Assembly (NCBI GenBank): GCA_002839825.1
Contig: PGYU01000007.1
Span: 91,165 to 125,596, forward strand
From: Ignavibacteriae bacterium HGW-Ignavibacteriae-1
Lineage (GTDB): Bacteria > Bacteroidota > Ignavibacteria > Kapaibacteriales > UBA2268
Direction: 5' to 3'
Length of the DNA stretch: 34,432 bases
The notes beneath the pieces are model-generated. The model searched no databases. It had not been told where the DNA came from and worked only from the letters and a program-made list of their open reading frames with translations. Of the stretch, positions 22,586-30,889 are shown in pieces. Numbering within the stretch: the first letter of the stretch is position 1; each line of letters starts with the position of its first letter. A program made the position numbers and the translations under genes.

Positions 22586-23572
22586 ATGAATGACATTAAT
22601 GAATTGAACGAAAGAATTAGGCAAGAAAGCGCTTTCGTTGACCTTTTGATGAACGAAATAGGGCGAGTCATCGTTGGGCAGAAATATATGGTAGAGCGCC
22701 TGTTGATAGGCTTGTTATCCAACGGACACGTGCTATTGGAAGGCGTCCCGGGATTGGCTAAGACGCTGGCGATTAAGACGCTTGCTCAAGCGATTAACGG
22801 AAAATTCAGCCGATTGCAATTTACTCCCGACTTATTGCCTGCGGATTTGACCGGGACTATGATTTATAATCATAGCAAGGAAGATTTTACAGTCAAGAAA
22901 GGACCATTATTTGCTAATTTTATTCTTGCTGACGAAATCAACCGTGCCCCGGCAAAAGTCCAATCAGCATTGCTCGAAGCCATGCAAGAGCGTCAAATCA
23001 CAATCGGCGATGACACTTACAAACTCGAAGAGCCCTTCTTGGTGCTTGCTACGCAAAATCCGATTGAGCAAGAGGGGACATATCCTTTGCCCGAAGCGCA
23101 AGTTGACCGTTTCATGCTCAAACTTATCATTAATTATCCGACTCGTGACGAAGAAAAATTTATCCTTCGCCAAAACATTGCGAAAGAATTCCCAACAACC
23201 AATCCGGTTCTCAACTTAGACGAAATCCTCAAAGCCCGTAACACCGTAAAAGAGGTTTATATGGATGAAAAAATTGAGCAATATATTCTCGATATAGTCT
23301 TTGCGACTCGATTCCCACAAGAATACAAGTTAAGCAAACTGAACCAATTAATTTCGTTTGGAGCATCACCTCGCGGTTCAATCAATTTGGCACTTGGTGC
23401 CAAATCGTATGCTTTTGTCAAACGTCGCGGCTATGTAATTCCCGAAGACGTTCGTGCAGTATGCCACGATATTCTCCGCCATAGAATCGGCATCACTTAC
23501 GAAGCCGAAGCCGAAAACATTACATCGGAAGATATTATAAATGAAATTCTAAATACCGTCGAAGTGCCATAA
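22586..23572 (+). CDS. moxR: MoxR-family AAA+ ATPase
   Basis: 328-residue cytoplasmic AAA+ chaperone-like ATPase. Walker A GVPGLAKT at 53-60, Walker B ILADEIN at 113-119, the sensor region ATQNPIEQEGTYPLPEAQVDRF, and the C-terminal lid. MoxR proteins remodel VWA-domain partners; here these would be the DUF58 protein, BatA and BatB. AAGGAG lies 9 bp before ATG 22586. It opens the second half of the Bat cluster, and its stop overlaps the DUF58 start (TAATG at 23570-23574). Confidence 0.96.
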   Translation: MNDINELNERIRQESAFVDLLMNEIGRVIVGQKYMVERLLIGLLSNGHVLLEGVPGLAKTLAIKTLAQAINGKFSRLQFTPDLLPADLTGTMIYNHSKEDFTVKKGPLFANFILADEINRAPAKVQSALLEAMQERQITIGDDTYKLEEPFLVLATQNPIEQEGTYPLPEAQVDRFMLKLIINYPTRDEEKFILRQNIAKEFPTTNPVLNLDEILKARNTVKEVYMDEKIEQYILDIVFATRFPQEYKLSKLNQLISFGASPRGSINLALGAKSYAFVKRRGYVIPEDVRAVCHDILRHRIGITYEAEAENITSEDIINEILNTVEVP

Positions 23573-24447
23573 TGGATACTACCGAATTAATCAAAAAAGT
23601 TCGCAAAATTGAAATTAAAACACGCGGTATTACTAAGCAATTATTTTCAGGTGATTACCACAGCGTGTTCAAAGGGCGAGGTATGGCATTCAGCGAAGTT
23701 CGCGAATATCAAGTAGGCGATGACATTCGCTCAATTGATTGGAACGTAACGGCACGATATGCAAGCCCTTATGTCAAAATTTTCGAGGAAGAACGCGAAC
23801 TCACTGTGGTTTTGCTTGTTGATATTTCGGGCTCGCAGAGTTTCGGAACTCACTCGCAATTCAAACGAGATTTGGTCACCGAACTTTGTGCAGTGCTGAC
23901 TTTTTCGGCAATCCAAAATAATGATAAAATTGGTGTTTTATTTTTTAGCGATAAAATCGAAAAATTCATACCTCCTAAAAAGGGCAAAACACATGCTTTG
24001 CGCATTATTCGCGAATTACTCGAAATCACTCCAAGCGGAAAAGGAACCGATGTAGGAAATGCTTTGAAATATTTGACTAACGTTATGAAAAAGCGGAGCA
24101 TAGTTTTTCTCGTTTCTGATTTCATTACACCTGGATTTGACGAGCATCTCAAAATAGCTTCTAATCGTCATGACACGATTGCCGTCCAAATTTACGACAA
24201 ATACGAAGAAGAGCTCCCCAAAGCAGGCTTAGTTCGCACCTATGACCCCGAAACGGGTAATATGGATTGGATTGATACCAATGATAAAAATGTTCGGCAA
24301 GAATATAAATCTTGGCGAGAATCAATGCAAAAGAATTTGGCAAATATTTGCACTCGCAATAAAGTTGACATGATAAAAATCAGAACTGACGAATCGTATA
24401 TAGCTCCGCTTCAGAATTTTTTCAAAAAGCGAGAAAGACGGAAATAG
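23572..24447 (+). CDS. DUF58 (VWA-like) domain protein
   Basis: 291 residues, no signal peptide or membrane segment. The DUF58 signature FKGRGMAFSEVREYQVGDD lies at 33-51, followed by RSIDWNVTARYASPYVK at 53-69. A VWA-like core has DISGS at 84-88, giving a partial MIDAS. It is the standard neighbour and probable partner of MoxR, whose ATPase activity may regulate its folding or metal state. Translation is coupled to moxR by a 1-bp stop/start overlap. Confidence 0.94.
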   Translation: MDTTELIKKVRKIEIKTRGITKQLFSGDYHSVFKGRGMAFSEVREYQVGDDIRSIDWNVTARYASPYVKIFEEERELTVVLLVDISGSQSFGTHSQFKRDLVTELCAVLTFSAIQNNDKIGVLFFSDKIEKFIPPKKGKTHALRIIRELLEITPSGKGTDVGNALKYLTNVMKKRSIVFLVSDFITPGFDEHLKIASNRHDTIAVQIYDKYEEELPKAGLVRTYDPETGNMDWIDTNDKNVRQEYKSWRESMQKNLANICTRNKVDMIKIRTDESYIAPLQNFFKKRERRK

Positions 24448-24481
24448 TTTTTAATTAATAAAAATAACTAAGGATACCGAA

Positions 24482-27400
24482 ATGAAAAAGTTTACTATTT
24501 TAATGAGTTTGTTGTTTATAGGCGTGTTTTTATCGTTCATTTTTTATGGCGAAAAAAACAAAATCAAGCCAACAAGCTCAAGCATTTCGGGACCTTCGAT
24601 AACTAAAGAAAAGCACCGTTGGTTTATAGAACGTTACGCTGACCCTGCAACCGGAGAATTACCACCGCATATTAATGCAAGAGTTTTGCAATATATCAAT
24701 TCGACTTTCATCCCCAAAGATGAGAAATTACTCAACGAAATGTTGATGAGCGAGGACATGTGGGATGTACGCGGACCGTACGAAATTGGCGGCAGAACCC
24801 GTTCTCTTGGTATTGACATCAGAAACGAAAATGTTATAATCGCAGGTGGTGTATCGGGTGGAATGTGGCGAAGCGTTGACGGTGGAAGCTATTGGGCGAA
24901 AACCACTCGCTACGACCAATTGCATTCATCAACTTGCTTAGTTCAAGACACTCGTCCCGGCAAAGAAGACAATTGGTATTATGCCTCAGGTGAATACTTT
25001 GGAAATTCGGCAGCTGTGACAGGCGATGGAGTTTTCAAATCTACCGATAATGGTCAATCTTGGGATGTATTACCTGTGACTACGACAAATAAACCCAATA
25101 ACTGGGATAACCCTTTCGATTATTGCTGGAACATTGTGACAGACCCAACCGCTCCATTGGAACGGGATGACCTTTACGTTGCTGCTGCAAATTACGGTAT
25201 TTTGAAGAGTACAGACGCAGGCAACACTTGGACTACTACTCTGGGAGCAGGTTCAGGCGCCAGACAAGCAGATATCGCAGTTACTTCCGATGGTGTCTTT
25301 TATGCGACATTATCATCAAATACTTCACAAACAAAAGGTATTTATCGCTCTGAAAATGGAACTGATTGGACAAATATTACTCCTCCGGGATTCCCAACCA
25401 CATACGAGAGAGTTGTAATCGGAATTGCACCTTCTGATGAAAATCAGGTATATTTTGTGGGCAACACGCCCGGTTTCGGCAAATTAACCCGTAACAGCCG
25501 TGGCGATTCGCTCTATCATAGTTTGTGGCATTATACATATTTAGGTGAAAACGGCGCAGGCGATAACGGTCGCTGGGAAGACCGCTCGATGAATTTACCC
25601 AAGCCCGACAGCACTAAAGGACAAATGAATTCGCAATGGGGATATAATTTGGTAATAAAAGTCAAACCTGATAATCCTGATGTAGTCTATATCGGAGCTG
25701 TAGCATTATATCGTTCCGATAACGGATTTCGCACTTCGGATTTTGCTTGGATTGGCGGAACTTGCCCATTTGGAGATTGCGACTATAATTTCCGCTACCC
25801 CAATCATCATGCCGATAACCATGCTATTGTTTTTTCACGCAACGATTACAATCGCGTTTACACAGGCTCCGATGGTGGTGTGCATGTGACTTTAGACGGT
25901 GAAGCGGATGTCGTGGAATGGATTTCCTTAAATAAAGGATATTATACGACCCAATTTTATTCAATTGCGATTGAACATTCTCCACGCAATAGCGTAGAAA
26001 TTATAGGCGGGATGCAGGACAACGGCACTATGATAGCCAAATCAATGAATGTGATGGACAGATGGACTGAGCCATTGAGAGCAGACGGTTTTTGTTGCCA
26101 AATTCCTGCCGGAGCAGACTATTACTATGCTTCTCAAAATTCGTCTTCCCAACCTGCTATCAAAATTTTTCGTGTCAAACAGGACGAAAATGGCAAAAAT
26201 CTTATCCAAACCCGAATTGACCCAATCGGAGGTAGAGATTTTATTTGGAATACTCCGTTCATACTCGACCCGAACGATAACAATCGAATGTATCTCGCCG
26301 GTGGCAAGATGGTATGGCGAAATAACGATTTGACTTCGATTCCAATGGTTCAATCTGTTGATTCGACTTCAATCGGCTGGGATAGCCTTTCAAACACTCG
26401 GATTGATTTTTCATCTAACTTGCAATCGGAGAGAATAACAGCCATTCAAGTTTCTACAAATCCTGCCAACGTATTGTATTATGGAACATCTCAAGGCAAA
26501 ATTTTCAGAGTTGATAACGCTGACGTCGGCAATCCAAGTCCTGTAAATGTTACTCCTTCGGGCATTACGTTGGGCTATGTGAGCAGTATCGCCATAGACC
26601 CTGAGAATGCTTATGATGTGATTTTGTCATACAGCAACTATAATTTATTAAGCGTTTTCCGCTCCTTAGATGGTGGCGAATCGTGGGTTTCGATTTCCGG
26701 CAACTTTGAGGAAATGCCCAACGGTTCAGGTGCAGGACCTGCCGTTAATTGGATTGAAATCCTGAAGCAAGGCGATAAGAAGATTTACTTCGCAGGCACA
26801 AGTATTGGGCTCTTCACCACTACTTTCCTTAATGATAATTCTACAGTTTGGAAAAAAGAGGGCTTGAATGTAATTGGCAATGTGGTCGTAGATATGATTG
26901 ATGCTCGGCATAGCGACTCCTTTGTTGCAATTGGAACTCATGCAACCGGAATGTATTCGGCTTTTTACGAATTCGAACCACTATTAGCGGGAAATGTCAA
27001 TCTGACTTATCCGCTAAATAATGCTCGATTTGTAGTTGATTCCGTTCATTTTAATTGGAGTGAAGCCACAAATGCAGGATTTTACGAATTGCAAATTTCA
27101 AAAACTTCTGATTTTTCGGAAATATATAAAACAATTCATGGCATCCGAACCAATACAGCTTTTGAAACTTTCCTTCCCGATGGGAGAGAAGAGTTGTATT
27201 GGCGAGTTAGAGCAATTAGCTCAAATGGTGCCGGAGAATGGTCTCAGGCGTGGAAATTCACTACAATCGCCGAAGCCCCGACTTTACTTAGCCCCGCAAA
27301 CGCCAATTTGTATGTGCCTTTGAATCCGACTTTGGAATGGTCGCAAGTTGAGGGAATAAGCCAATATCGTGTCCAGTTAAATTTAGGTTTTTCGATTCAA

Positions 27401-27850
27401 AATCCGCTGATTGATACTATTGTCACAGGGAATTTATTACAAATAAGTGATTTAATTTTAAATAAGCGATATGTTTGGAGAGTTTTATCAATCGAAGAAG
27501 GGCACGAAGGGCAGTTTTCCGCACTTTCTTATTTTATGACGAAAGAACCCACAAGCGTAACGGAAAATTTCCAAAATCTCGTGAACGTAGTTTTGGCGCC
27601 CAATCCCGTTGCTGATTTCGGCAATTTGAAATTCGAATTGAATGCCGAAGCCTCGATAAGTGCCGAGATATTCGATTCCGGTGGCAGATTGAGAGCGAAT
27701 ATAATTAACCAAAAATTATATCCGGGCAATTACAATTACCCGATGAATTTTACAAATTTGCCTTCAGGCTCCTATTTTGTTCGACTTGTCCAAAAACAAG
27801 GCAGCTTGAAAATGAATGTTCAAACTATTCCAATTAATATTGTCAGATAA
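24482..27850 (+). CDS. T9SS-exported beta-propeller (BNR/sortilin-like) protein
   Basis: 1122 residues. N-terminal hydrophobic signal segment about 4-22, then a large propeller region with recurring Asp-box/BNR units, for example MWRSVDGGSYW (128-138), FKSTDNGQSWD (185-195), LKSTDAGNTWT (241-251), IYRSENGTDWT (284-294) and FRSLDGGESWV (724-734). Two fibronectin-III-like units start near 838 and 933. The last 86 residues (from about 1037, beginning LAPNPVADFG and including LPSGSYFVRLVQ) are a type A T9SS sorting domain, so the protein should cross the outer membrane and be surface-attached or released. The propeller type is shared by sialidase-like, sortilin-like and adhesive proteins; I see no catalytic set that settles its activity. 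It lies 34 bp after DUF58 and 7 bp before the BatI-like gene, inside the Bat operon. Confidence 0.88.
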   Translation: MKKFTILMSLLFIGVFLSFIFYGEKNKIKPTSSSISGPSITKEKHRWFIERYADPATGELPPHINARVLQYINSTFIPKDEKLLNEMLMSEDMWDVRGPYEIGGRTRSLGIDIRNENVIIAGGVSGGMWRSVDGGSYWAKTTRYDQLHSSTCLVQDTRPGKEDNWYYASGEYFGNSAAVTGDGVFKSTDNGQSWDVLPVTTTNKPNNWDNPFDYCWNIVTDPTAPLERDDLYVAAANYGILKSTDAGNTWTTTLGAGSGARQADIAVTSDGVFYATLSSNTSQTKGIYRSENGTDWTNITPPGFPTTYERVVIGIAPSDENQVYFVGNTPGFGKLTRNSRGDSLYHSLWHYTYLGENGAGDNGRWEDRSMNLPKPDSTKGQMNSQWGYNLVIKVKPDNPDVVYIGAVALYRSDNGFRTSDFAWIGGTCPFGDCDYNFRYPNHHADNHAIVFSRNDYNRVYTGSDGGVHVTLDGEADVVEWISLNKGYYTTQFYSIAIEHSPRNSVEIIGGMQDNGTMIAKSMNVMDRWTEPLRADGFCCQIPAGADYYYASQNSSSQPAIKIFRVKQDENGKNLIQTRIDPIGGRDFIWNTPFILDPNDNNRMYLAGGKMVWRNNDLTSIPMVQSVDSTSIGWDSLSNTRIDFSSNLQSERITAIQVSTNPANVLYYGTSQGKIFRVDNADVGNPSPVNVTPSGITLGYVSSIAIDPENAYDVILSYSNYNLLSVFRSLDGGESWVSISGNFEEMPNGSGAGPAVNWIEILKQGDKKIYFAGTSIGLFTTTFLNDNSTVWKKEGLNVIGNVVVDMIDARHSDSFVAIGTHATGMYSAFYEFEPLLAGNVNLTYPLNNARFVVDSVHFNWSEATNAGFYELQISKTSDFSEIYKTIHGIRTNTAFETFLPDGREELYWRVRAISSNGAGEWSQAWKFTTIAEAPTLLSPANANLYVPLNPTLEWSQVEGISQYRVQLNLGFSIQNPLIDTIVTGNLLQISDLILNKRYVWRVLSIEEGHEGQFSALSYFMTKEPTSVTENFQNLVNVVLAPNPVADFGNLKFELNAEASISAEIFDSGGRLRANIINQKLYPGNYNYPMNFTNLPSGSYFVRLVQKQGSLKMNVQTIPINIVR

Positions 27851-27857
27851 TCAAAAT

Positions 27858-28832
27858 ATGAACAGTATGAAAATATTTGCATTTATAAGCTTTTTATTAA
27901 TTTTATCAGTTAATCTTTACAGCCAAAATCCTCAGATTAAGGTTAGTGCCGATACTAATAATGTACTAATCGGCGAGCATGTTAAATTGACTTTTGAATA
28001 TTTGGGTCAGTCCGACGATAAAGTCACGTTCCCGATTTTGGGCGATACATTGGGTCCGTATGATATAATCGAAATTGGTAATATTGACACAAGCAAAAGC
28101 GATAGGAATTTGATTTTAAAGCGTATTGTAACCGTGACATCTTTTGACACAGGAATGGTCTTTCTTCCGTCAATTCCATTCGTTTACGAGCGGCAGGATT
28201 ATGATACTGCCTTTGTCGCGAATTCCGATGAGTTAGCATTGTATTTTGCGACTGTCCAACTTGATACTGCGGCTGATTTGAAAGACATCAAAGGTCCGAT
28301 TGAAATACCAATCACATTTGCCGAGATGTTGCCCTATATATTAGGGGGATTGGGTGTCGCTTTGCTTATTGTTGCGATAGTTGTATTACTAAAAAGAAGA
28401 AAACGTAAAGTCAAAACGCCTATCATCGAAAAATATGACCCGACGATTCCGGCGGATTTGGAGGCATTGCAAGCACTTAAAGAATTGGAAAATAAAAAGA
28501 TTTGGCAGCAAGGACGGCACAAGTTCTATCATTCGGATTTGACCGATATTTTGCGAACTTATATTCACCGAATTTACGACATCAATGCGCATGAATTGAC
28601 AAGCGATGAAATTTTGAGCGAATTGCAGAGCAAAGAACCTTCCCCCGAAGCATTGGATATTTTGCAAAAGATTTTATCAATTGCCGATTTGACCAAATTT
28701 GCCAAATTTACACCATCTGACACACAAAATCATGATAGTATGACAATGGCAGTAGCCTTTGTGAATCAGACAAAATCGAGAATCATGTTGGAAACGAGCG
28801 AAACATCAACGGAGGAAAAACACAATGTTTGA
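27858..28832 (+). CDS. BatI/DUF4381-like membrane protein
   Basis: 324 residues from ATG 27858; ATG 27867 is equally plausible, while the longest frame starts inside the upstream gene (27816) and would spoil the signal peptide. Signal peptide ends about LYS-Q. A periplasmic BatD-like beta domain opens with IKVSADTNNVLIGEHVKLTF, one membrane segment lies about 157-180, and a cytoplasmic helical domain (LEALQALKELENKKIW, then FYHSDLTDILRTYIHRIYDI) matches the DUF4381 type usually found between DUF58 and BatA. The stop overlaps batA by 8 bp. Confidence 0.82.
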   Translation: MNSMKIFAFISFLLILSVNLYSQNPQIKVSADTNNVLIGEHVKLTFEYLGQSDDKVTFPILGDTLGPYDIIEIGNIDTSKSDRNLILKRIVTVTSFDTGMVFLPSIPFVYERQDYDTAFVANSDELALYFATVQLDTAADLKDIKGPIEIPITFAEMLPYILGGLGVALLIVAIVVLLKRRKRKVKTPIIEKYDPTIPADLEALQALKELENKKIWQQGRHKFYHSDLTDILRTYIHRIYDINAHELTSDEILSELQSKEPSPEALDILQKILSIADLTKFAKFTPSDTQNHDSMTMAVAFVNQTKSRIMLETSETSTEEKHNV

Positions 28833-29820
28833 TGGAGTAACTTTTGCAAATCCCGAGTATTTCTATGTATTGATAGCAATTCCGATTTTTTTGGCTTGGT
28901 ATATATTTCGTCAGAAAAAGCAATATGCCACGCTGACAATCCCGACTGAGGTGCCATTTAAGAATGCAAAACTTTCGCCGCGTAAAATTTTGCGACACTT
29001 TCCGATTGTATTGCGAGTGGCTGCATTTGCGCTCTTGGTAACAGCTCTGGCACGTCCTCAGACATCATCAAGCTCGCAAACTGTCTCGACTGAAGGGATT
29101 GATATAATCATGGCAATTGATGTTTCGACTTCAATGTTGGCAGAAGATTTTAAGCCAAATAGAATCGAAGCCGCCAAAAAAACAGCAACTGAATTTGTCG
29201 AAAATAGATTAAACGACCGCATTGGTCTAGTGGTTTTCGCAGGTGAAAGCTTTACGCTTTGCCCTGTGACGATTGACCATGCTGTGCTGAAAAACCTGCT
29301 TGCTTCAGTAAAAGAAGGCATGGTGGAGGACAATACAGCAATTGGAATGGGTCTGGCAACGGCTGTTTCGCGACTCAAAGACAGCAAAGCAAAAAGCAAA
29401 GTTGTAGTGCTGCTGACTGATGGGGTAAATAATGCGGGTTTCGTGGCTCCTCTGACAGCGGCTGAAATTGCCCAAACATACGGAATCAGAGTTTACACAA
29501 TTGGCGTTGGTACTCGTGGAATGGCTCCATATCCAATCAAAACGCAATTCGGCACTCAATATCGCAATCTTGAAGTTCAGATTGACGAGGATATTTTGAA
29601 GCAAATTGCAAGCATGACTGACGGTAAATATTTCCGCGCCACTAACAACAAAGTTTTGCAGGAAATTTATACAGAAATTGATGAATTGGAAACAACAAAA
29701 GTGGATGTCTCTGTCTTCAAGAAATATCACGAAGAATTTCCACCTTTTGTGATAATTGCCTTTGGGTTAATTTTCATCGAATTATTATTTCGATATACAT
29801 ATTTGAGGACATTACCTTGA
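28825..29820 (+). CDS. batA: BatA, VWA-domain membrane protein
   Basis: 331 residues: N-terminal membrane segments about 12-27 and 60-76, VWA domain with DVSTS at 99-103, a NTAIGMG threonine loop and LTDGVNNAG completing the MIDAS, and a C-terminal membrane segment about 306-324. Typical BatA, with ALARPQT before the VWA domain. GGAGG lies about 10 bp before ATG 28825. In most Bacteroidota batB follows at once; here the next gene is a DNA glycosylase, and batB is 13.5 kb upstream. Confidence 0.93.
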   Translation: MFDGVTFANPEYFYVLIAIPIFLAWYIFRQKKQYATLTIPTEVPFKNAKLSPRKILRHFPIVLRVAAFALLVTALARPQTSSSSQTVSTEGIDIIMAIDVSTSMLAEDFKPNRIEAAKKTATEFVENRLNDRIGLVVFAGESFTLCPVTIDHAVLKNLLASVKEGMVEDNTAIGMGLATAVSRLKDSKAKSKVVVLLTDGVNNAGFVAPLTAAEIAQTYGIRVYTIGVGTRGMAPYPIKTQFGTQYRNLEVQIDEDILKQIASMTDGKYFRATNNKVLQEIYTEIDELETTKVDVSVFKKYHEEFPPFVIIAFGLIFIELLFRYTYLRTLP

Positions 29821-30443
29821 GCAAGGCTCTGCCGGACGAGCTACAAGCAAAATTTTCAGAGATTAGGCACCAAATCACGACAAGACTTGAGCATTTTTCG
29901 CAAGTCAAGGTTGAGCAGTACTTTTATGAATTATGCTTTTGTATTTGCACACCGCAATCAAAAGCCAAAAACGCATATTTAGTCCAACTTGCGTTGCAAA
30001 ATCTAGACTTCCGCAATAAGGAATTTGACCCAACTCCTTTGTTACGCAATCCTGCGAATTATATCAGGTTTCACAACCAAAAGGCTCGCCGATTATTAGA
30101 AATGCGTGAGCAGTATGTGGAAATCGAACAAGTGCTGCGTTCAGATGATTCGCCATTCAATAAAAGGCGATGGTTGACTGAGAATTTAAAAGGCTTTGGG
30201 ATGAAGGAGAGCAGCCATTTCCTGCGGAATATCGGATGTCGGGATTTGGCAATTTTAGACCGTCATATTTTGAAGCATCTTGCCAATTGCGGACTTTATG
30301 AGGAAATTCCCAAACTCGGCACTAAAAGCAGATATTTAGAAATCGAAAAAGATTTTAAAAATTATGCTGCCGACTTAAACGTTACTATTGACGAATTAGA
30401 TTTGCTGTTTTGGAGTTACGAAACAGGTGAGATTTTTAAATAA
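29817..30443 (+). CDS. Ogg2-type 8-oxoguanine DNA glycosylase/AP lyase
   Basis: 208-residue helix-hairpin-helix GPD repair enzyme that removes 8-oxoguanine from DNA. GFGMKESSHFLRN (126-138) holds the Schiff-base lysine K130, and AILDRHIL (145-152) the catalytic aspartate D148. Length and the C-terminal lysine (ending TGEIFK) match the archaeal/Thermotoga Ogg2 family rather than MutM or eukaryotic-type OGG1. The start is TTG 29817, overlapping the batA stop (TTGA); no usable ATG occurs before residue 96, and GAGGA lies about 7 bp upstream. The coupling to a stress-linked operon fits an oxidative-damage role. Confidence 0.92.
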   Translation: MSKALPDELQAKFSEIRHQITTRLEHFSQVKVEQYFYELCFCICTPQSKAKNAYLVQLALQNLDFRNKEFDPTPLLRNPANYIRFHNQKARRLLEMREQYVEIEQVLRSDDSPFNKRRWLTENLKGFGMKESSHFLRNIGCRDLAILDRHILKHLANCGLYEEIPKLGTKSRYLEIEKDFKNYAADLNVTIDELDLLFWSYETGEIFK

Positions 30444-30457
30444 ATTTGCTGAAAAAG

Positions 30458-30889
30458 ATGACAATAGAGGATTTGAACTCGGATTCGAGAATTGAAAAGA
30501 TAGAATTTTCAAACGGATATTTGCAATTTTACTGGGAAGATTATTTCCAGGATAGAATTTTTGAATTGCGGATTAAGACTGATTATTGCTACATGAACAC
30601 GCGGATGGAGGAATTGGCTTACGAATTTTGCCGATTACGCAAATTTGATTTGAAAGACTATCTAAAAATTGACGAGAAATCGCATTTGTATCTGATGCCT
30701 GCTGATTTTGTATCGCAAATGAAAATCGCCCGAAACAAGATGAATCTTGCCGTTGGGCTGAATTCGACTGAATGGAGACACTTTTTCCAAGTGCAAGGAG
30801 ACGGTTTGGTGCTTGCTTGTCCTGTCAAAAATTGGGATAATGTTGATATCGAAGAAATCGGTACAATGATAAATATCAATCCGAATTAA
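30458..30889 (+). CDS. hypothetical protein
   Basis: 143 residues from ATG 30458; an in-frame TTG at 30446 is possible. I recognise no family. No signal peptide or membrane segment is seen. It is rich in aromatic and charged residues with alternating strand-like patterns (for example FSNGYLQFYWEDYFQD) and one central helical part, suggesting a small globular alpha/beta protein. It begins 14 bp after the Ogg2 gene, so is likely co-transcribed, and its last 14 bp overlap the convergent amidotransferase gene. Confidence 0.65.
   Translation: MTIEDLNSDSRIEKIEFSNGYLQFYWEDYFQDRIFELRIKTDYCYMNTRMEELAYEFCRLRKFDLKDYLKIDEKSHLYLMPADFVSQMKIARNKMNLAVGLNSTEWRHFFQVQGDGLVLACPVKNWDNVDIEEIGTMININPN

Follow-up and report, generated by a model that had tools for sequence, protein, structure and literature searches.

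A T9SS-type beta-propeller gene settled within the MoxR-Bat block of family f1

The propeller gene and its block

The window, by which we mean the whole stretch of 34,432 nucleotides analysed here, belongs to genome G000 of family f1. Its plus strand carries a MoxR-Bat block with a large gene for a predicted exported beta-propeller protein in the middle (Table 1). The propeller gene is an ATG-started ORF of 1122 open codons; by eye, an AAGG-type ribosome site lies 5' of it and the N-terminus of its product is hydrophobic. It begins 34 bp after the DUF58 stop (24447) and ends 7 bp before the ATG of the BatI-like gene (27858), in agreement with the gaps given in the initial annotation; an alternative in-frame BatI-like ATG at 27816 would overlap the propeller gene. 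"BatI-like" is the label of that annotation, kept for a protein whose DUF4381 match is subthreshold. The Bat (Bacteroides aerotolerance) operon likewise begins with MoxR, followed by DUF58, BatI-like and BatA genes, but lacks such a propeller gene in its middle. No further Bat-type genes were matched among the ten genes scanned around the block. Downstream, a 147-aa protein without a Pfam match follows the glycosylase after a gap of 2 bp (window 29817-30889). Among the regions drawn, a glycosylase after BatA was seen only in g1 and G028.

Table 1. Coordinates of the block genes, the propeller domains and the upstream junction in the window
Feature	Position	Strand	Evidence or remark
MoxR AAA+ ATPase, first gene of the block	22586..23572	+	AAA_3 220 bits; bpMoxR 51.8 bits
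DUF58 (vWA-like) protein	23572..24447	+	PF01882 270.9 bits
34-bp junction with ribosome-binding site	24448..24481	+	without terminator-like site
T9SS-type exported beta-propeller protein, 1122 aa	24482..27850	+	profiles; export predicted
Asp-box/sortilin/GH74-like propeller region, residues about 90-830	24749..26971	+	conservation profile; PDB profile matches over parts; family Pfam matches
Two FN3-like units, residues about 838-1025	26993..27556	+	fn3 in 16/26 members; PDB tandem FN3 chains
T9SS type A C-terminal sorting domain, residues 1040-1108	27599..27805	+	PF18962, TIGR04183; 26/26 members
BatI-like membrane protein	27858..28832	+	DUF4381 22.7 bits, weak (cut-off 27.2)
BatA, vWA domain	28825..29820	+	PF07584 45.4 bits; VWA 79 bits
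8-oxoguanine DNA glycosylase	29817..30443	+	PF22175 168.9 bits; 4-bp overlap with BatA end

Neither junction of the propeller gene holds a terminator-like site on the plus strand. Together with the retention of the block across 14 genera (see below), this indicates that the propeller gene and the block genes probably form one transcription unit, as had been proposed. A 12-of-12 sigma-70 match at 24813-24840, 331 bp within the propeller gene, was set aside, though not disproved, because it could not serve to transcribe the whole gene and lies where the encoded peptide is conserved. L016 has the identical site, and that of L019 differs at one base. A 9-of-12 match lies inside DUF58 (24337-24365), and the region holds 42 such sites in total against 33.6 expected. 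The record of L016 (JAGXRP010000060.1), a MAG titled Desulfobulbaceae, covers the same locus as contig C60 of G045, a genome of the window's genus, so its name looks wrong.

The GC content of the propeller gene (0.418) falls within the range of the four other block genes (0.381-0.429), and its codon distance is the lowest of the five. Codon distance falls with gene length, so the low value means merely that nothing is odd. The comparison of codon usage suggested in the initial annotation thus finds the gene to be like its neighbourhood.

The initial annotation had described a propeller, two FN3-like units and a type A sorting domain, and this make-up held. In the window protein itself, the sorting domain exceeds the curated cut-offs of both Pfam (PF18962, 29.1 bits vs 27) and NCBIfam (TIGR04183, 24.6 bits vs 23). 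The remaining parts come from family profiles: in the single protein Sortilin-Vps10 is weak (19.1 bits, cut-off 33), the glycosylhydrolase profile NF045728 stays below its cut-off (38.7 bits, cut-off 175), and fn3 and BNR give no match at E<=0.01. Among 26 aligned family members, by contrast, Por_Secre_tail was matched at E<=0.01 in 26, Sortilin-Vps10 in 19, fn3 in 16 and BNR in 15. Searched against the PDB, the profile of these 26 members hit chains of GH74 xyloglucanases (2cn3, E 1.5e-13) at its positions 116-308, a similarity that covers part of the propeller only. Parts of the N-terminal region also match Ycf48 and a BNR glycosyl hydrolase, and positions at about 845-1020 match tandem FN3 proteins. 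A structure model of the propeller protein, built from three sequences (the window and two related loci), reached a pLDDT of 32, so the propeller fold rests on sequence profiles. For the conservation profile, 44 long-form homologues were aligned, as were 21 shorter paralogues of ~930 aa; the two FN3-like units were not seen in any of the latter. Judged by these profiles, the predicted propeller class is weak in the single protein and clear across the family. Similarity to a PHROG tail protein over 82 residues (E 4e-6) was put down to the repeats.

SprA, the only T9SS part searched for, is encoded in the window's own genome (TIGR04189, 947 bits, cut-off 200). By its sorting domain and the presence of SprA, the ORF can be classed as a predicted T9SS type A cargo. 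It resembles T9SS type A cargo proteins with BNR/sortilin (GH74-like) propellers in its sorting domain and in its Asp-box, sortilin and GH74 profile matches. The long form described here differs from them in its two additional FN3-like units and in its fixed place inside the MoxR-Bat block of one family.

Compared with two congeners, the whole propeller protein showed dN/dS values of 0.097 and 0.099. By part, dN/dS was about 0.06 for the propeller, 0.14-0.15 for FN3 and 0.27-0.30 for the sorting domain; among the block neighbours it was at most 0.02 for MoxR and DUF58, about 0.12 for BatI and 0.04-0.05 for BatA. The propeller gene is therefore under purifying selection.

Position of the propeller gene within family f1

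All 54 genomes of f1 were searched, and 28 of them carry the long propeller gene (G000-G005, G008, G009, G018, G020, G021, G028-G034, G041-G046 and G050-G053). Twenty-five of the 28 have it inside a MoxR-DUF58-[propeller]-BatI-BatA block, which bears out the conservation that the initial annotation had proposed to check. These genomes span 14 genera (g1, g2, g3, g4, g5, g7, g8, g12, g17, g18, g20, g21, g24 and g27), and the in-place copies share about 40-93% identity. Such recurrence argues that the arrangement is not due to chance. DUF58 directly adjoins the propeller gene upstream in 23 of the 28, two further genomes being seen from the BatI side only. One of these is G008, whose propeller contig and BatI contig have a 119-base end in common. 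The other is G050, where propeller is followed by BatI and preceded by a 106-aa ORF, and where the contigs end short of DUF58 with no overlap.

With starts chosen naively, the DUF58-side gaps in relatives are mostly 3-33 bp (95-99 in two g27 genomes, 257 in G018, negative in G001 and G033) and the BatI-side gaps range from -37 to +26; both junctions are looser in G034. G033 (L128), G034 (L125) and G052 (L122) have a split or interrupted propeller frame, through either assembly error or decay, and the gene of G041 is spread over two contigs. Other propeller-like proteins were seen after BatA in G003 (L117; 640 aa, opposite strand) and in G033 (L128; 1476 aa, same strand).

The genes on either side of the block vary. 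In regions drawn from the linked genomes together with g9 and g23, the gene 5' of MoxR fell into 22 homology clusters among 30 genomes, of which one was common to more than one genus, and the gene 3' of BatA into 17 among 30, of which two were. The block itself is kept, while the flanking genes have turned over.

In three genomes the propeller gene has been relocated: G020 and G021 (both g13) and G032 (g19). The G021 copy sits behind folB and folK, and similar genes occur in G020. Elsewhere the operon exists without the gene. DUF58 is closed directly onto BatI in all five genomes of g23 and all five of g9, with gaps of -22 to +4 (-4 to +2 in g23). The gene is also missing from G022 (g14), G015 (g10) and G019 (g13), where an ORF 26% identical to the propeller is a distant paralogue. 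A BatI-like match at E<=1e-5 was found in 43 of the 54 genomes. Within f1, the propeller gene occurs without a DUF58 orthologue only in G008, where the assembly is broken.

Distribution beyond f1 and history of the gene

In the whole order (123 genomes), 79 genomes match the propeller at E<=1e-60 when long and short forms are counted together. At the same threshold, DUF58 orthologues occur in 55, all of them in f1, f7 and f8. The long propeller nevertheless occurs in f4, f5, f6 and f9, families without a DUF58 match at that threshold. Its surroundings there are different. Of 12 f4 loci, clustering shows 10 with a polysaccharide-flippase-like gene ahead of it, which Pfam confirmed for two. The gene ahead of it in f9 is ManC-like in all three g49 loci (one checked) or, in g50, a peptidase C26 gene that itself follows LpxK (one checked); at one f6 locus it stands behind a transglycosylase gene. 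Four-base overlaps recur outside f1. In further loci, for example in g47, the propeller gene has no tight neighbour. MoxR, DUF58, BatI and BatA gave no tblastn match in the 69 propeller loci examined outside f1; some of these loci overlap each other, and in 29 the flank extends no further than about 1.5 kb. G104 of f8 encodes a divergent long propeller (33% identity) on a contig apart from the operon; a 458-aa ORF near it showed a faint BatA match (22%) that tblastn did not repeat. The propeller family is common in the phylum, since 81 of 395 sampled genomes, the window's order included, match at E<=1e-100.

Among 67 propeller proteins placed in a tree, the 24 usable long copies of f1 form one clade, and a careful tree of 30 proteins supports this clade at 100/100. 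The larger tree dropped six rows shorter than 850 aa, which include the split copies of G033, G034, G041 and G052, so the propeller trees cover 24 of the 28 copies of f1; the smaller tree also leaves out the 26%-identical ORF of G019. Of the relocated copies, those of g13 group with the linked g24 (100/99) and that of g19 with the linked g12 (95/100), and the linked state requires three changes on the 30-protein tree.

For the operon, a tree of MoxR and DUF58 left the backbone unresolved, and adding BatI and BatA helped. The resulting four-gene tree (41 rows) was built without g6, f7, G104 and rows with at most one of the four genes, a rule that removes G032; G008 was not in the set. It places the gene-less g23 with the linked g2 (96/97) and then with g5 (92/98). 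Several of its deep branches are weakly supported, and the tree does not fix the place of g9. Presence of the propeller gene requires six changes on this tree. An AU test rejected holding the gene-bearing rows as one clade (p-AU 0.002, 27 rows); the group was set by gene presence, G019 included, and chosen after the tree was seen.

Because g23 is nested among gene-bearing genera, its lack of the gene is read as a secondary loss after which the operon re-closed. Since the 24 placed copies form one clade, one old capture followed by vertical descent is the simplest history. Repeated gain of a propeller at the same site is unlikely in view of this single clade. In the outgroup f8, DUF58 adjoins BatI without a propeller in three of three genomes, which fits capture within f1. 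In f8 (L214, L215 and L216) a further BatA-like gene lies downstream of MoxR-DUF58-BatI-BatA on the opposite strand, in L214 with a BatI-like match.

A probable old lodger, proposed to share expression

We consider it likely that an old T9SS cargo family was captured once into the MoxR-Bat block for expression, with no obligate partnership. The propeller protein family would be older than its link to the operon. A single capture between DUF58 and the BatI-like gene would have taken place in an early f1 ancestor, and position, trees and dN/dS suggest that the gene was then mostly inherited in place under purifying selection. The operon would supply its expression, while in other families the gene would have settled behind different genes, several of them envelope genes. 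As its domains suggest, the protein may be exported by Sec via the N-terminal hydrophobic segment; the large Asp-box/sortilin-like propeller would bind a ligand at or beyond the surface, the two FN3 units would act as spacers, and the sorting domain would be recognised and then removed by the T9SS.

At the genome level, MoxR/DUF58/BatI/BatA and the propeller gene do not need each other, as clean absence, relocation and presence without them show. Co-occurrence as a sign of functional partnership fails both ways: g9 and g23 have the operon without the gene, and f4, f5, f6 and f9 have the gene without a DUF58 orthologue. Shared expression is favoured over a chaperone-client bond because each partner persists without the other. 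Retention between the same two genes over 14 genera speaks against this, as it exceeds what a neutral lodger needs, although the interior of an operon is hard to leave. A second point against it is that no f1 genome surely has the gene without a DUF58 orthologue, so that partial co-dependence may exist there.

The initial annotation had suggested that the Bat/MoxR machinery may assist assembly or display of the propeller. In its strong form, MoxR-DUF58-BatI-BatA would be a chaperone-like inner-membrane machine that folds, holds or hands the propeller to the T9SS in f1, the gene being its dedicated substrate. The five-gene block, kept in 14 genera despite changing flanks, speaks for such a machine, as does the lack of any sure f1 occurrence of the gene without the operon. 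MoxR-vWA pairs are also tied to beta-propellers in conflict systems: the ternary systems of Kaur et al. (2020, PMC7159879) likewise combine genes for a MoxR, a vWA-like component and a propeller. In those systems the vWA component and the propeller form one fusion, and the third component has TPR and propeller regions, whereas here DUF58 and propeller are separate genes and the propeller carries a T9SS sorting domain. No bp-type Pfam domain was matched in the propeller protein (only Por_Secre_tail and a weak Sortilin). The bpMoxR match was not counted as a sign of a ternary system; its 51.8 bits (cut-off 27) lie far below the 220 of AAA_3 on the same MoxR. The titles and abstract beginnings that we found do not name a propeller gene inside a MoxR-Bat block, though full texts may. 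We regard the chaperone machine as unlikely, and assistance of any kind as unsupported: the operon is closed without the gene at the site in g9, g23 (where the gene was lost) and f8, other families carry the gene without a DUF58 orthologue, and g13 and g19 have separated it from the block. Moreover, the expected place of MoxR and DUF58 is the cytoplasm or the inner membrane, and that of a T9SS cargo is outside.

Alternatively, the propeller could act at the surface as part of a Bat-linked stress response. It would then be of use only while stress induces the operon, with selection keeping shared regulation and not physical contact. Retention of the block as a unit would fit, and in Riemerella anatipestifer a bat operon rises under heat and oxidative stress, with moxR and batA affecting stress survival (PMC11834572). 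In Leptospira biflexa, by contrast, deletion of all bat genes left growth and oxidative tolerance unchanged (PMC3557215), so that the literature on Bat is itself divided. Bat regulation of the propeller is also not general, because other families keep the gene behind unrelated genes (flippase-like, ManC-like, LpxK/C26 and transglycosylase). A stress role thus appears improbable. We hold it rather doubtful that in f1 the MoxR-DUF58-BatI-BatA set came to serve solely the maturation of one T9SS surface propeller, the need vanishing where the propeller was lost; if true, such an arrangement would be an exported counterpart of the known MoxR-vWA-propeller systems.

Finally, the initial annotation had also proposed a recent insertion. 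A recent horizontal insertion limited to the window's genus would agree with the gene-less operons of f8, g9 and g23 and can nonetheless be dismissed, given 14 genera with the gene in place at about 40-93% identity, a single propeller clade, and GC and codon usage like those of the neighbours. Absence of the gene from this position in all relatives, together with its own promoter and terminator, had been named as the signature of a passenger; this is not what we found, so the gene is not a recent passenger, and it may still be an old one. Overall, the interpretation in the initial annotation is partly supported, and the propeller gene looks like a long-settled lodger rather than a working part of the operon.

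Operon membership alone is thus a poor ground for reading partnership. If the propeller were a client of MoxR-Bat, genera with and without the gene should differ; the clean losses suggest that such a difference need not exist. The natural losses and relocations in f1 serve as controls, and they make the question of the MoxR-Bat target testable.
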